DNA of 64,000 bases from Ulota crispa (Eukaryota > Streptophyta > Bryopsida > Orthotrichales > Orthotrichaceae). The stretch is from assembly GCA_963920765.1 (NCBI GenBank), contig OY987245.1, forward strand, positions 15,888,727 to 15,952,726, read 5' to 3'. The notes under the pieces are model-generated. The model did not search any database, was not told where the DNA came from, and saw nothing but the letters and a program-made list of their open reading frames with translations. Shown piece by piece: positions 4,999-46,030 of this stretch; positions within the stretch are counted from its first letter, which is position 1, and the number at the start of each line of letters is the position of its first letter. Both the position numbers and the translations under genes were made by a program.

Positions 4999-7900
4999 AG
5001 ATATGGGAAGTTGCAATGCCCAATCCACTTTCATTTTATGGAATTGTTCTTCAATCAATAGTAGGTCATGCACAAACTCAGCTTTGCATCTATGGAAACT
5101 TAAATTCCAACAATACTTTTTAGAATACAAGCTTTGAAGGAGTTGAAAGTTATGTTACCAAAAATTTAGCATGATTGAACAATTAGATCTGAAATATTGA
5201 TAATTTTTGAAGAAGATCAATATAAAGATAATACATGTTTTAACATTTAAAAAATCATAGTGTAAATGAGAAGTGTCATAACAATTAACCATCTTACTGT
5301 TTTATTTGTACTAGCAATTTCAAAGCCTAATTGAAGATCTTAGATTTTTAGGAGTGGAAGATTTTATTTTTGTCAAACTGTAGTATTGTTAGTTGTTATC
5401 ATTGAAAAATAGCTTATGCTAAAATTGTATTTGGCATGATTTGAAAATTGGTACTTTGTTTCAAAAATGTCCAAAAATTTGTGCATGCACACTTTGAACT
5501 TAATCATTGTTAACAATAAGCTTCTTTTACCTTTGGTAAAAAAAGTCCATCACAAAATTATAAATTTAGATAATTTGAATGTACTTTTTTGAATTGTGTT
5601 TGCATGTGAACTAGCAATACATTTTGTTATTTATATGTTACTCAACTTAGATGATTTAGTATGATTTTGATTATCACAAATTACAAAAGTTTGACAATTG
5701 GTAAATACTAGTCAATCCTAGAATGATCAATATTAAAATAGTTGCCTACTCACTATTTTAGAAATGTAAAAACATTCATTCTCCTTGTATGTTTTTTCTT
5801 ATCTTCTTTTCTTTGTTGTAGTTTTTTGAGAGTACATGTATAAGAAATCTAACTTGAGTTTTAACAAGAACAGTATTAAAAAATTCCTTACACATTGTTT
5901 TCTTGTGTTTTGTATTTTTTTGTTTACCTAGAGTAGAAACATTCCAATATTTATTGTTTTTTTTTTATGAGTTTAACATCCAAAACACATACTACAAGTT
6001 TTTCATGATGTTTTTTATGAAGAAAATTTTGATATTGAAAGAAAATTTATGATCAAAACATATCCAAAGAGCATTATAGCTAATGGATGAGGTTTGTATG
6101 AGTTTCATTGATTGAAATTGTTGTGATTTGATTAATAAGCTTGTCCAAGGTTTAGTGCAATTGCCTACAAGACACAATTATTTTTTCTCTTTACAGAGCA
6201 CACAACAATAATTGAAAGAGAATTTTTCACATATTTCTATGGATGGATTCTTGTTTTTTTTTACAACAAGAAAAAATAATCTTTTGGAATCAATAAACTT
6301 TGAATTCAAATCAATGTATTTTTTACATTTTTGTAAAATACATAATAGAACTGTTGAATTGCCTTCTTCTTGCCATTATGTTTGTCAATCTAACTCATCA
6401 TAATAGTTGAAATGATCTACCTCTTGAAAAATCCATTGACCTCCATAAGCTCGTAATGTTGATTTGGATAAGCCTCAATTTATGAGTTCTTACCTTCCAC
6501 TGATGCATATTCTTTGAACTTGCTTTAGAATGATAGGATTTTGTATATGCTAAGGTTTTTGTATTCATTATCTTTAGGTAAAAAGTAACCACAACAATCT
6601 AAACATTTATTGTGCATCCAAATAGATGAAAAAATCATACATTACATCATAAAATTGTTATTACGTTTACGCTTTATATATCTAGGAATCACTCCATCAC
6701 ACCTTTTGTCTATCAACATGCATTAATTTTGTAATCCAATACAATTACAAGTTGCAAGTTTGATTGTTGGAAAAAGCCACTAAGAGACAACAAGAAACCC
6801 TTGCCATGTGAAAATCAGAATGACATTTAAATTTATTAGAACTCATCAAAACTTTAGAACTTTATTCTACTTTTGGATTTTCAAATGGTTGATGTAAAGA
6901 ATTGTAAGAAAAAATTGAGTGTTTTTTTCTTTTTCAAACAATAATATCTTAAGAAAATTCTACCATTGAAGCATTTAAAAATGAACAAGAGGGTGTAAAA
7001 CATAAAATGAATTATGAGTGACACTATTATTCATGATTGAATCAAAATATTTTGTGAACATACAACAAACATGTGTAGTGTATTAATCAAGCATTTTAGC
7101 AAAATTCACTAGAAAAGATTTGATACATATTATATAGAGTACTCAAACAACAAACAAGTTCAGGTTTTGAGTCTTATAAAATTCTATTTTACCTTTCATT
7201 TACATGTATTGATGTTTTAAGTCATAGCCTGCATCTTAAATATTTGATTGTAACTTATAAGATTTCACTTTCCTTCTCTAGTACTCATTTATAAATGTCA
7301 TTGTTTGTCATCCATAATCCACATTTCTTATGATGATCTTTATTGTACTTTTCTTTTATCATGTCCATCAAATATTAAATTTGTGTTCTTGCTCATTGAA
7401 TGAAAGCATTGTTTGTTTACTATCAAACTCAATGGTGGTGACGTTATTTTTGTCATGGTTGTTTGGATTATCAAAACCTTTTGTTCAAATGTGTGCAAAA
7501 TGGATGGTGGCCATACTCTATCATTGTTGCCATGCATATTGAAAGGCGTCTAGCAAAAATTGCATATTACTTGGAAGAGAGCCTAGTGGAAGCAACAAGA
7601 TGCCTAGTCAAATCATTGATAGCTAATCTACCAATGCATTGAGAGAAACCAAAAGTAGACTTTCAAAAAAATATATAAATTCAAAGTAAAGACGGATTGT
7701 CTTGGTAACAAGAAAATGTAAGAAAGGTGATCTCAAGTAAATGTTGATCATGCACAACAAACTACAATATAAAGAGATGAGAGTATATTAAACTACAATA
7801 CTAAGAAAAAAAACATTTAAAAAAACACACAAGTTTTAAAGAGATAAAAGAATGTGCTGTTGAGATTGAAGATCTTTTTAACCTCAATCCCTATTTATAC

Positions 7901-27687: not shown

Positions 27688-28608
27688 ATGGCCGCCCTCG
27701 CCGTTGCCTCAGCTCCTGTCGTCGGCGCCTGCGCCTCTTTGGCAGGAGAGCGCCTCTCCCTCGCCCCTGCTCGCACCGCGACCTTCCCCGTCCAGGTACG
27801 CTCACATTGCATCTCAATTGGCCTTGTCCCGCTGAGGTTTCATCCCTTTCTCACATTTCGAAGTTTCGGCACTTGCCATGAGGAAGAATGAGCTTGTGCG
27901 TTTCGGGAATCGGCTTCGTTCTCGCCCTATTGGCTCTTACTTGAATTGTCAGATGTGTCCTACGGAATTAAGATTTAATTATATCTGAGTGATTTTACAC
28001 CTACTTGTATGTACCAGTGCATGCGTATTCTTAGGGTATGGAAACCGCACGCTATGAATTTAGCGTGTATAACTTTACAGAAAAGATTTTACCCGAGGTT
28101 TACATTTAAGGAGTTCGTGTCCTTTCTGCAATTATTGTCGTCGCCTTTTGGCGCCAATCTGAATTCCGGCGGTTGAGTTCCAGTGAATTTGAATCCGTGT
28201 TCGCTCAATTCTTGATGGAATTGGTATATGACATTGTCGACTAGTATCGGCTTCTGCACAATTGCATTGGAATAATGAGATACGGAGTTGGAGATTGTCG
28301 ATAAAGAGATTGGAATGACGCGGCATTGTTTCTGCGATGCTATTATTGACAGGAATTGCGATGGTGTGAATGAATTGCAGAGGAAGCTAGTTAGATGCTC
28401 AGCTGAACGCAAGTCCGACAGTGATGCAGTTCTCAGGCAGCGTGCTATCATGACGGCAGCGTCAGCGACCGTGATGGCCATCGCCACGCCGGTGTTGGCC
28501 GCGTCGGAGTCCGTACCAATCGACTACACGAGCGTGGCATGGGGAGGCTTGATGGTGATGTTCACGTTCTCGCTATCGTTGGTGGTGTGGGGAAGGAGCG
28601 GGTTGTAG
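27688..28608 (+). CDS. petN: Nucleus-encoded PetN, cytochrome b6f subunit VIII
   Basis: Single-helix subunit of the thylakoid cytochrome b6f complex, which moves electrons between photosystems II and I. Exon 1 is 27688-27795 and exon 2 is 28381-28608, joined in phase 0 across a 585-bp intron (cag|gtacgc ... ttgcag|agg), giving 111 aa. Residues 83-111 are a full-length PetN; the family's usual plastid product is 29 aa. The end [14 protein letters not shown] is identical to plastid PetN as I know it. Residues 1-56 are rich in Ala, Ser and Arg and look like a chloroplast transit peptide. Residues 58-77 ([20 protein letters not shown]) are hydrophobic and end in a possible thylakoid processing site. 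The intron lies within the acquired leader, upstream of PetN. The plastid gene's initiator Met is replaced. The spliced frame, polar leader and intact helix argue for a working nuclear gene, not an inserted plastid fragment. Confidence 0.9.
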
Positions 28609-34983: not shown

Positions 34984-36224
34984 ATTATGTTATTGTAAAC
35001 ATATATAATAAAATTTGGATTTGAAAATTGGACAACCCAAGTTATCATCAAACAAGCACAAGAGAATTTTAGATTTGGAATTTTACTCGGTCCAAAATTA
35101 GAACTAGCATTGGAACATTAAAATCTTCAAATAAAAAATGTTTTAAATATATCCGTGCCATTTCCATGGCTTGAACAATTAGAATAAAGCCCAAAGGCAC
35201 AACGAACTTCCAAAGTAAAGTTTGTTGTGCCATTTCCATGGATTGCTTGTTGCTTTCAATGTGTTTAATTTTGGTCGTTCATTTTTCAAATTTAAATTTT
35301 TATATATTTGTTTCATTTTGATTTATTTAAATGATTTTGAATGCTTTCATGATAGTTCTAAGTTTCCATTAAATTAAAGATATTAACAAATTTATTGAGT
35401 TGATTAGAGTGTTTCAGCCATTATGCTCTTAGAGCATTTCCACCTGACCTTTAGTTTCTCATTTTAGGGAGATATTGTGCATCTTGTTTCTCTTACTGAC
35501 TTGTAATTTCTCCCACCCATCCAACTAGGTAGAATAGTGTTAAATAAATAACAAGCCTCCTTGTTTGCAAAAGTAAATAGATTCTCCATCATTGCTTACT
35601 CAACTTATTAATAGATCAAAAAGGTATAGTGTGTAAACATGTTGCCATGCACAAAAAAATACAAATTTTGCAATGCAAAAAAGAACACTTTGAGAGGTCC
35701 AAGCATTAATTGCTCAATATTCATCCAAAAGTGTTCCAAAGAGCTTCTCCAACCCTACCCCGCACACAGACCACTCCAAACGGAGTTTTCCATGCAACTT
35801 TCATTGGGCAAGATGCAGCTCCAAGCTAGAGGTCCAGCTTGCCTTGCCGAAGACGGACAAGAATGGCAAAATGTGGGACCGCTGTTTGTGATACTTGAAA
35901 GTGATATGGACTGGTAGCGGGTCATGCCACAACAGTAAACGAGCTTCCAAAAAAAGAACTCAAGAAATTTCTTGAACGCACTGAAAATTAGCGGGAAGGT
36001 TGACAAGCCCGATCAGGACTCTCCGTGTGACAAGCAGGCGCTATACCGGGATTCCGCATCCTCGCGTGGGCCCGGTGTTTGGCCGTCTGGCGAGTGGAGG
36101 TGCTCTAAGAAGATGTTTGCAGTGCGAGCAAGCTCAGAAATCTCTGGGCTCCCAATCTAACATTGGGCAGGGTTGACTACAACATGTTATGATTTATGAA
36201 TCATGAAAAGAGGAAGCCAGCCGA
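34984..36224. other. Intergenic region and presumed UMP synthase promoter
   Basis: AT-rich to about 35600, then more GC-rich from about 35750 toward the UMP synthase gene. No gene is recognised. Open frames at 35639-35917 and 35972-36160 have no recognisable domains and probably lie in the promoter or leader. Confidence 0.5.
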
Positions 36225-36377
36225 ATGAAGTGGGGCTCCTTTATCCGTTCAAAAGCCTCCGCTCTCTACAATAGACCCCTTCGGCTGAGGTGTGGACCCT
36301 TTTCGCATTCACTTCCTAGGGTTGGAGCAGGGGAGAGGGCTTTGCATTTGAAATCTGTCTGCTGCGCGCGCGTTGCG

Positions 36378-37808
36378 ATGGTGGATGCCAGGGTGGACAG
36401 CTTGGTGCTGGCCCTGCACAATGTGGAGGCAGTGAAGTTTGGCGAGTTCAAGCTCAAGAGTGGGATCATTTCGCCGATTTACATCGACTTACGAGTGATC
36501 GTGTCCTACCCGGCGCTCTTGCAGCAAGTGGCGGAATCCGTGTGGGCAACCGTCGCGGGTGTGGAGCAGGATGTGATCTGCGGAGTGCCGTACACGGCGC
36601 TGCCCATTGCGACGGCGATTTCGCTGAAGCACGATGTGCCGATGGTCATGCGGCGCAAGGAGGTGAAGGATTACGGCACGAAGAAGGCAATCGAGGGGTT
36701 TTTCAAGCCTGGCCAGAAGTGCTTGATCATCGAGGATTTGGTCACGAGCGGGGCGTCGGTGTTGGAAACCGTGGAGCCTCTGGTGGCGGCCGGGTTGAAG
36801 GTGACGGATGTGGTGGTGTTGATCGACAGGGAGCAAGGCGGACCGCAAACGCTGACGAAACACGGGCTGAAGTTGCATGCGGCGCTGAAATTGACGCGTA
36901 TTGTGGATGTTCTTGTGCGCCATGGGAAATTGACGCAAGAGGTCGCAGACTCCGTAGGGAAGTTTTTGGTTGCGAACCAGACGACAGTGAGTATTCCGTC
37001 CGTTGCACAAACGCCTGCGAAGTTGCGAAGGTTGCCGTTCGGAGAGAGGGCTGGCTTGACGAAAAACCCTACCGGAAAGAAGCTCTTCGAGATAATGGAG
37101 AGGAAACAGAGCAATTTGTCGGTTGCAGCCGATGTGAACACAGCTCGCGAGCTTCTTGCCCTTGCAGATGCCGTAGGACCTGACATTTGTGTGCTCAAAA
37201 CGCACGTTGACATCTTCCCCGACTTCACTCCGGAGTTTGGCCGCCAGCTTCGTGAAATTGCCGACAAGCACGACTTTTTGGTTTTTGAGGACCGGAAATT
37301 TGCAGACATCGGCAACACGGTGACCATGCAATACGAAGGGGGCATCCACAAGATTGTGGAGTGGGCAGATATCACCAATGCACACGTTGTCCCTGGTGCA
37401 GGCATTGTGGACGGTTTGAAGTTGAAGGGGCTTCCTAAGGGGCGGGGACTTTTGCTCCTTGCAGAGATGAGCTCTAAAGGAACCCTAGCCAAAGGTGAGT
37501 ACACCCAGGCGGCTGCTCAGATTGCAGCTGATCATCCTGAGTTTGTTATTGGATTTATCTCAATCAACCCGGCTGCCTGGGTGGGCGGCCCAGGCAGCCC
37601 TGCTTTGATTCACATGACTCCTGGCGTTCAAATGAGTGCTGGTGGGGATGCTCTTGGCCAACAGTACAACACTCCTAGCTCGGTCATTGGCGAGAGAGGC
37701 AGTGATATTATTATTGTGGGACGCGGTATTATCAAGGCTGCAGACCCTGCTGCTGCTGCAAAGGAGTATCGCAAGGCGGGATGGACAGCGTACGAGCAAA
37801 GCTTGTAA
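36378..37808 (+). CDS. UMPS: Uridine 5'-monophosphate synthase (OPRT-ODC fusion)
   Basis: Bifunctional enzyme for the last two steps of pyrimidine synthesis: orotate plus PRPP to OMP, then OMP to UMP. From the ATG at 36378 it is 476 aa, the size expected of plant UMPS. The N-terminal OPRT domain shows the PRPP-binding signature [12 protein letters not shown] (about 106-117) and RRKEVKDYG (92-100). The C-terminal OMP decarboxylase domain shows LKTHVDI (about 273-279), the catalytic [12 protein letters not shown] (about 303-314) and phosphate-site residues around [12 protein letters not shown] and VGRGI. The frame is open without introns. It also runs upstream in frame to an ATG at 36225, adding 51 residues rich in Arg, Ser and Leu. 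I chose 36378 because homology begins there, but a longer targeted form is possible. An aataaaatg near 37940 may serve polyadenylation. Confidence 0.95.
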
Positions 37809-43725: not shown

Positions 43726-44579
43726 TTTTAAAACTTATAAAAATATTTTATAAAATTGTTTTTTTTTAATTCATTTGGTTAGTAATAGAAGGAAAATTAC
43801 TAAAAATACCCTTTAAGTCTTTCAAAATATCAAGTTTACGCCAAAAATATGTGAAACATAAAAAGTAGTCCTTATTTTTTGTAGGAATATCAATTATACT
43901 CCAATTATTTTGGAAAATTAATAAAATACCTCTTCTATTTTGAAATGTTAAATATATCCTTGTGTTGTTTGAAATGTAAAAATCACCTTTGGTTTCTTGT
44001 AAGAATTTGCATTAAACTATACACTTGGTTATCATATAATACAAAGATATTTTTGGTACTTTTAATCCTTAAGGAACATTTATGATTTCTTCAAAGTATT
44101 GAGGAGCATCATTTACATTTGTTTGTAAAGAAATTTTGATATTCAAAATAACAAAATGTTGTACTTTTTATATAAAATTTTGTTGAATTAGTGAAGTTGT
44201 GTCCAAAAGTATCTAAATCAACAAAAAACTATTGAGTTTTTTGTTATTATGGTCATGTTTTTACTTGACTTTAAAGGCTGCTAAGTTTAAATCTTACCAA
44301 ATTGTGAAAAGTAAAGAAAATAAAACCAGTCAATGTACACTCAAACTTCTAAAAGATTCTTTTTTTTTGAAAACTTATTTTATTTTTTAAAACTTCAAAA
44401 AAATTTAATGAGGTCCAAAAAGATTTTAGAAAGATTTCAAAAACAAACCTAAACTATTGTGATAGTGTTTTTGAAAGTATTTTGATGATTTACAAAAAGA
44501 TTCCTAAAGGACTCTAATTCAGTCTAAGAGATTCTATTTCTATAAGTATTTTGAAGTACTTTAACAAATTTCATAAAGA

Positions 44580-46030
44580 TTTTAAAAAGATTTTCAAAGA
44601 TTCCAAAAAGGTTCTTGAAAATTCTTAGAGATTTTCAAAGATTTTTTGAATTTCAAAAAAGATTCTCAAAAGATTCTCAAAGATTCTCAAAGATTCTCAA
44701 AGATTCTCAAAGATTCTCAATTGTTCTCAAAGATTCTCAAAGATTCCAAAATACTTGAAAAGATTCTCAAAGATTCCAAATGATTCTCAAAGATTTCTAA
44801 AAGATTCTCAAAGATTCTCAAAGATTTCCAAAGATTCTTGAAGATTCCAAAGAGATTCTCAAAGATTCTCAAAGATTCTCAATTGTTCTCAAACATTCTT
44901 GAAGATTCCCAAAAAACTTAAAAAGATTCCCAAAGATTCCAAAAGATTCTCAAATATTTCAAAAAAGATTCTCAAAGATTTTGAAAGATTCTCAGAGATT
45001 CTGAATTGTTCTCAAACATTCTCAAAGATTCCAAAAAACTTGAAAAGATTCTCAAAGATTCCAAAAGATTCTCAAAGATTCCAAAAAGATTTTTTAAGAT
45101 TCTCAAAGATTCTCAATTGTTCTCAAACATTCTCAAAGATTCCAAAAAACTTGAAAAGATTCCCAAAGATTCCAAAAGATTCTCAAAGATTCTAAAAAGA
45201 TTTTCAAAGATTTTCAAAGATTTTCAAAGATTCTCAAAGATTCTCAAAGATTCTCAAAGATTCTCAGTTGTTCTCAAACATTCTCAAAGATTCTCAATTG
45301 TTCTCAAACATTCTCAAAGATTCCAAAAAAATTTGAAAAGATTCCCAAAGATTCCAAAAGATTCCAAAAAGATTCTAAAAAGATTCCAAAAAGATTCTTA
45401 AAGATTCTCAAAGATTCTCAAAAATTCTCAAAGATTCTCAATTGTTCTCAAACATTTTCAAAGATTCCAAAATACTTGAAAAGATTCCCAAAGATTTCAA
45501 ATGATTCTCAAAGATTCCTAAAAGATTCTCAAAGATTCTCAAAGATTTCCAAAGATTCTTGAAGATTCCAAAGAGATTCTCAAAGATTCTCAATGATTCT
45601 CAATCGTTCTCAAACATTCTCGAAGAGTCCAAAAAAACTTGAAAAGATTTCCAAAGATTCCAAAAGATTCTCAAAGATTCCTAAAAGATTCTCAAAGATT
45701 CTCAAAGATTCTCAAACATTCTCAAACATTCTCAAAGATTCCAAAAAAACTTGAAAAGATTCTCAAAGATTCTCAAAGATTCTCAAAGATTCTCAAAGAT
45801 TCTCAATTGTTCTCAAACATTCTCAAAGATTCCAAAAAAGCTTGAAAAGATTCCAAAAGATTTCTAAAGATTCATGAAGATTCCTAAAAGATTCTCAAAG
45901 ATTCTAAAATCTCAAAAAGATTCTTAAATATTCTTAGAAATCTTGAAAAGATTTTCAATTATTCCCAAAAGATTCTTGAAGATTCTTAAAGATTCACAAA
46001 AAATTCCCAAATTATCTTCAAAAGATTCCA
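44580..46030. repeat. Tandem array of ~10-bp repeats (agattctcaa)
   Basis: About 1.45 kb made of a degenerate 10-bp unit, agattctcaa, with variants agattccaaa and agatttccaa. A longer pattern is superimposed: a block reading tctcaattgttctcaaacat recurs roughly every 110-200 bp (for example near 45003, 45115, 45296, 45437, 45805). Because 10 is not a multiple of 3, the array is open over long stretches and yields KDSQRFSKI-like frames at 44899-45845, which I take as by-products. Confidence 0.9.

Follow-up and report, generated by a model that had tools for sequence, protein, structure and literature searches.

Plastomes that lack petN are known from several mosses. The gene is missing in Tortula (PMC2841679), Tetraphis (PMC4035505), Sanionia (PMC5877570), and most Bryopsida (PMC11901946), and it is reported to be present in Takakia and Physcomitrium patens (PMC6726147). 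For Sphagnum palustre, the accounts disagree, with plastid petN given as present in PMC4035505 (unpublished data) and implied to be absent in PMC6726147. The closest described case is Sanionia uncinata, whose plastome lacks petN and whose draft genome contains a nuclear petN homologue that was checked by PCR (PMC5877570, 2018). A nuclear petN in a moss is therefore not new. The available portion of that account names no leader donor, intron, or relation to PsbTn, and we compare the Sanionia gene with ours by description.

Transfer of a plastid gene to the nucleus with a borrowed leader also has precedent. SOD1-RPL32 of Malpighiales combines a plastid gene that moved to the nucleus with a transit peptide from a nuclear gene whose product works in the plastid and which had been duplicated; the donor persists (PMC8018952). 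There, the donor encodes a stromal enzyme and the cargo is a ribosomal protein, whereas the proposed donor of the Ulota petN leader encodes a protein of the lumen, and a membrane subunit is the cargo. Chlorophytes also have a nuclear PetN (including 1q90 chain N), whose longer precursor likewise begins with a leader. However, the leader of Picochlorum PetN (P0006) could not be aligned to three moss petN leaders beyond chance (z 1.1–2.2), so the chlorophyte gene is probably an independent transfer.

The locus that we describe lies in a 64,000-nucleotide stretch of the Ulota crispa assembly (the window), on a 25.7-Mb contig (C4). Very probably, it is a nuclear petN in a moss that no longer has the gene in its plastome, and it would have arisen through the placement of plastid petN in a duplicated copy of psbTn. 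It resembles PsbTn genes (P. patens P0009 and P0121, and the Ulota gene on contig C2) in the leader part of both exons and in intron position. It differs in the mature part, which is PetN in our gene, whereas in PsbTn it is a photosystem II protein of the lumen that has two cysteines. Although this kind of event is already known, the donor appears to be new, as do the proposed psbTn origin of both leader and intron and the link to Sphagnum. Among open-licence PMC papers, we found none that derives a moss petN leader from psbTn.

Table 1. Parts of petN (positions in the window) and the psbTn gene of the same genome
Feature	Location	Strand	Description
petN exon 1	27688..27795	+	Residues 1-36, the N-terminal half of a leader of PsbTn type; putative import part; frame open from ATG to GT donor
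petN intron	27796..28380	+	Phase 0, GT-AG, 585 bp, behind codons V-Q; boundaries read from the sequence
petN exon 2, leader part	28381..28518	+	Residues 37-82: a run rich in basic residues and a hydrophobic signal of thylakoid type, to VLA (about 28381-28500), then ASESVP
petN exon 2, PetN part	28519..28608	+	Residues 83-111 and stop codon; Pfam PF03742 E 5.2e-12, PDB PetN chains
psbTn, Ulota genome	C2:484777-485674		Exon 1 484777-484878; intron 484879-485431; exon 2 485432-485674

The initial annotation described a two-exon, 111-aa frame with PetN at its end, and this was borne out. From the ATG at 27688, exons 27688–27795 and 28381–28608 form an intact frame of 111 codons that ends in a Pfam PetN match. 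The intron edges read CAG/GTACGC and TTGCAG/AGG. PetN stays in frame with four of the eight AGs that lie within 150 nt of the intron's 3′ end and with six of the GTs scanned as donors; only 27796/28380 gives the junction of the relatives, and we rejected the other splice sites. A colinear 111-aa relative (P0001, 80% identity over 100% of the query) reads on across the predicted junction, and this continuity in a relative's protein suggests a spliced transcript. Counting against the overall reading of the gene given above, the residues at the junction are RKL in Ulota petN and MGP or MAP in the relatives. We regard the observation of a two-exon nuclear petN as confirmed. Elsewhere in the window, positions 44842–45562 contain overlapping open frames of a repeated motif (KDSQRFSKILNCSQTFSKIPK and similar), which by its look is a tandem DNA repeat.

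The final 29 residues are well matched to PetN. Residues 86–111 scored 45.9 bits with Pfam PetN (PF03742; E 5.2e-12), exceeding the curated cut-off of 20.3, and the spinach PetN PDB chain was matched at E 1.9e-10. Of the 29 positions in residues 83–111, 22 agree with plastid PetN of spinach, and residue 83 is Ile where plastid PetN has its start Met. Trp8, Ser18, Val22, and Arg26, which are described as highly (100%) conserved in PetN (PMC1540425), are all kept in the Ulota nuclear protein (W90, S100, V104, and R108). Across the assembly (274.8 Mb, 157 contigs), this gene was the sole PetN match at E ≤ 0.001 (7 candidates scored). GC3 of the PetN part is 0.862, compared to 0.638–0.687 for UMPS and psbTn and 0.105–0.156 for plastid petG and petL (petG, 0.105). 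The UMPS frame, which served only as a yardstick for codon usage, is a long uninterrupted frame at window positions 36207–37808 that we take by eye to encode UMP synthase (orotate phosphoribosyltransferase and OMP decarboxylase).

The 82 residues that precede PetN resemble the leader of PsbTn. Alignment with Physcomitrium PsbTn (P0009, a photosystem II 5 kDa protein in which PetN is absent) revealed identity at 46 of 82 positions, and exon 1 was identical to P. patens PsbTn exon 1 at 23 of 36 aligned positions (z 11.9 relative to shuffles). The petN and psbTn leaders of the Ulota genome were identical at 37 of 82 aligned positions (z 18.8). Comparison of three petN leaders with three moss PsbTn leaders gave z values of 18.8–28.1, and none of 1000 shuffles scored as high in any of the nine comparisons. 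A profile of five nuclear PetN proteins yielded 197 matches (7994 candidates scored), with Physcomitrium PsbTn P0009 sixth among the 120 listed. A profile built from two PsbTn proteins only gave 14 matches in 5.8 billion sequences, including a Sphagnum nuclear PetN (E 2.1e-20) and P0001 (E 1.8e-14).

Inside the Ulota genome alone, the likeness between petN and psbTn appears modest. Searching the genome with petN recovered psbTn exon 2 at E 0.15 only, and searching with P. patens PsbTn recovered petN exon 2 (E 3.7e-4), the PsbQ leader (E 9.8e-4), and petN exon 1 (E 0.024). In exon-1 DNA, 75 of 108 columns are identical between petN and psbTn, above 300 shuffles. As for other leftover psbTn DNA, the exon-2 leader, the intron, and the 5′ and 3′ flanks aligned no better than shuffles, and the mature part of PsbTn was not seen downstream of petN.

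The two genes also share an intron position. Ulota psbTn, which is intact and sits on a different contig (C2) from petN (C4), has a phase 0 intron after codons V-Q, matching petN in boundary and phase. For P. patens psbTn and Sphagnum-type petN, protein frames suggest an intron at this site as well. In read-through frames of each (P0130 and P0019, respectively), VSVQ is followed by unrelated residues that begin with V, resembling a GT donor. In P0122, P0123, P0124, P0128, and P0129, exon 2 is entered from unrelated residues that end in Q, resembling a CAG acceptor; P0128 and P0129 are divergent PsbTn frames with the same exon-2 start following Q. Because the leaders are homologous and the intron boundary and phase are common to both genes, petN has the appearance of a copy of psbTn into which PetN was inserted behind the thylakoid signal. 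Thus, the import-type leader with an internal intron that the initial annotation proposed can be described more specifically as PsbTn-type, intron included. Ulota petN combines an intact nuclear frame with a leader that is homologous to that of a plastid protein and is predicted to target the plastid.

We asked how much of this likeness is generic, since petN could be a real nuclear gene whose leader did not come from psbTn, if alanine-rich thylakoid leaders converged and the introns agree by chance. The leader of PsbQ from the Ulota genome, used as a control, also beats most shuffles (z 3.7–9.2 against petN and 9.7–11.2 against PsbTn), and the match of P. patens PsbTn to this leader, given above, likewise favors convergence. 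A lycophyte PsbTn leader compared with petN (z 1.3–5.2) did no better than controls. These controls indicate that a generic likeness of alanine-rich leaders is real, and that the likeness between petN and PsbTn is clear within mosses only. However, the z values of all nine moss comparisons lie above those of PsbQ, and the PsbTn-only profile finds PetN. In addition, the petN and psbTn introns agree in phase and both come after the V-Q codons, a place that the PsbQ frame passes without an intron. Convergence is therefore unlikely, and we favor descent of the leader from psbTn.

Two further leaders came to light in these comparisons. The PsbQ-like gene (L035; C1:39112897–39113094, minus strand) has a leader that resembles PsbTn leaders at the z values given above and lacks an intron at the corresponding place; the resemblance may reflect common origin or a shared style. 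A 122-aa PetN precursor from a metagenome (P0008), which has another leader and a streptophyte-like PetN, scored at about the PsbQ level (z 4.6–9.9); we left it unassigned, and it may be another nuclear petN.

We examined the plastome, which is contig C157 (112.5 kb, of which the 10 kb at bases 85001–95000 read N). No petN was found in the readable 102.5 kb, which include the psbM-trnC stretch. The order there is psbM, ycf66-like frames, trnC-GCA, and rpoB, with no petN among them and with psbM and trnC intact. As petG (37 aa), petL (31 aa), psbJ, psbL, psbF, and psbE are intact in C157, very small genes are detectable in this contig. Of the larger genes, psbA and psbD were matched by Pfam, and open frames that we take by eye to be psbC, psaA, psaB, rbcL, atpB, petA, petB, petD, rpoB, rpoC1, rpoC2, ycf2, ndh genes, and chlB are also present. 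Since Rfam found no rRNA in C157 outside the N stretch, this stretch probably covers the inverted repeat. We rejected two candidate petN remnants. The best translated matches (13876–13820, E 0.042, and 6028–6066, E 0.16) are both at chance level, and the second is near trnC but on the opposite strand; from gene order, the old plastid petN is expected on the strand of trnC.

Together, these results support what the initial annotation had anticipated, a plastome without petN, as in some mosses, and the layout of a plastid-to-nucleus transfer. Readable C157 contains no petN, the assembly contains one PetN match, the frame is intact and preceded by a leader, and the accounts cited above describe the same absence from the plastome in Tortula, Tetraphis, Sanionia, and most Bryopsida.

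Plastid-like insertions do occur in this genome. Copies of psbA and psbD on contig C7 (6529551–6540489; L002 and L007) have the spacing of the plastome and are 99.6–99.7% identical to C157 over 3900 and 2613 bases, and represent either a large and recent insertion of plastid DNA or a join made in assembly. In the window, 256 bp at 6355–6610 are 78.5% identical to C157:105071–105324, in an ndh-type frame, and are a plastid insertion that is old and decayed. A 26.6-kb contig has an open psbA frame (C79:12525–13424; L004) that is only 86.6% identical to psbA of the Ulota plastome and is possibly DNA of another organism.

Given the C7 copies and the 256-bp piece, petN itself might be an open but functionless nuclear insertion of plastid DNA (NUPT), but this is very unlikely. 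The only matches to C157 in the window at E ≤ 1e-3 are 6355–6610 and 43729–43767, and none is beside the gene. Moreover, GC3 resembles that of nuclear genes, none of the four conserved residues has been lost, the frame is intact, and a leader with an intron is present, in a layout that recurs in relatives.

The direction of the transfer can be considered from the distribution of the two genes. PMC12661325 reports PsbTn from angiosperms, gymnosperms, ferns, mosses, and a single streptophyte alga, and we found a lycophyte member (P0131). Before Tortula, petN had been described from every known land plant plastome (PMC2841679). Because PsbTn is widespread and petN was plastid-borne in land plants before Tortula, psbTn is the likely donor. 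These distributions make it extremely unlikely that an older nuclear petN supplied the leader of psbTn, and the divergent PsbTn frames P0128 and P0129, which start exon 2 identically after Q, also argue against this reversal. The leader tree leaves it some room: in this unrooted tree of 17 rows, one branch (78/91; 82% of 200 bootstrap trees, with the bootstrap unsettled) has all five petN rows to one side, no branch is well supported, and Sphagnum petN cannot be placed. It is scarcely credible that the moss gene is simply an ancient green algal nuclear PetN gene, with no separate transfer: longer PetN precursors do exist in chlorophytes (Picochlorum, Chlorella, and Chlamydomonas species), but the sole chlorophyte leader compared, that of Picochlorum, is at chance level against the moss leaders, which match PsbTn instead, and, to our knowledge, petN is generally present in published land plant and streptophyte plastomes, in keeping with the land plant record above.

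In the leader, residues 1–36 include one acidic and two basic residues, and residues 37–57 include three acidic and seven basic residues. On the Kyte-Doolittle scale, residues 58–76, ending in VLA, average 1.74, and the PetN helix (residues 88–106) averages 1.82. This composition is in line with a transit peptide followed by a thylakoid signal and then a membrane helix, although residues 1–19 are hydrophobic too (1.86), which is unusual in a plain stromal transit peptide. Before the hydrophobic stretch, PsbTn rows of the leader alignment have NRR (8/12), another RR (3/12), or neither (1/12), and petN rows have RQR (3/5), KRC (1/5), or QRR (1/5). A change of thylakoid pathway between the PsbTn and petN leaders is possible.

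A model that accommodates these data is that plastid petN sequence landed in a duplicated nuclear psbTn gene and displaced mature PsbTn directly behind the thylakoid signal. The resulting gene would have retained exon 1, the intron position, and the exon-2 signal of psbTn. Its transcript would be made and spliced in the nucleus, and the exon-1 part would take the precursor into the stroma. The exon-2 signal and the PetN helix would then insert into the thylakoid membrane. Cleavage in the lumen after VLA, a site that we placed by eye, would leave the PetN N-terminus in the lumen with about six extra residues, and the processed PetN would join the cytochrome b6f complex.

The capture may be old. 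Sphagnum compactum PetN (P0003), encoded on a 19.2-Mb contig, has the same leader and is 60% identical across the whole query. As the leader is common to this Sphagnum nuclear PetN, the simplest reading is probably a single capture of the psbTn leader before the split of Sphagnum and Bryopsida. Early capture favors the view that plastid petN of Physcomitrium was retained over the view that it was regained. No P. patens PetN with a PsbTn-type leader was among the matches listed, although P. patens proteins are in the database; an unannotated gene is possible. On balance, we lean toward one early capture, long coexistence of nuclear and plastid petN, and loss of either copy lineage by lineage, with Physcomitrium retaining the plastid gene and losing the nuclear one.

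If this is true, one early nuclear backup accounts for the scattered way in which mosses have lost plastid petN. Now that a donor can be named, an intron position is diagnostic, and Sphagnum has a relative of the gene, the history of petN becomes a question that is testable in any moss genome. More generally, a membrane subunit of 29 residues could move to the nucleus by borrowing the leader of a protein that is already delivered to the thylakoid lumen.
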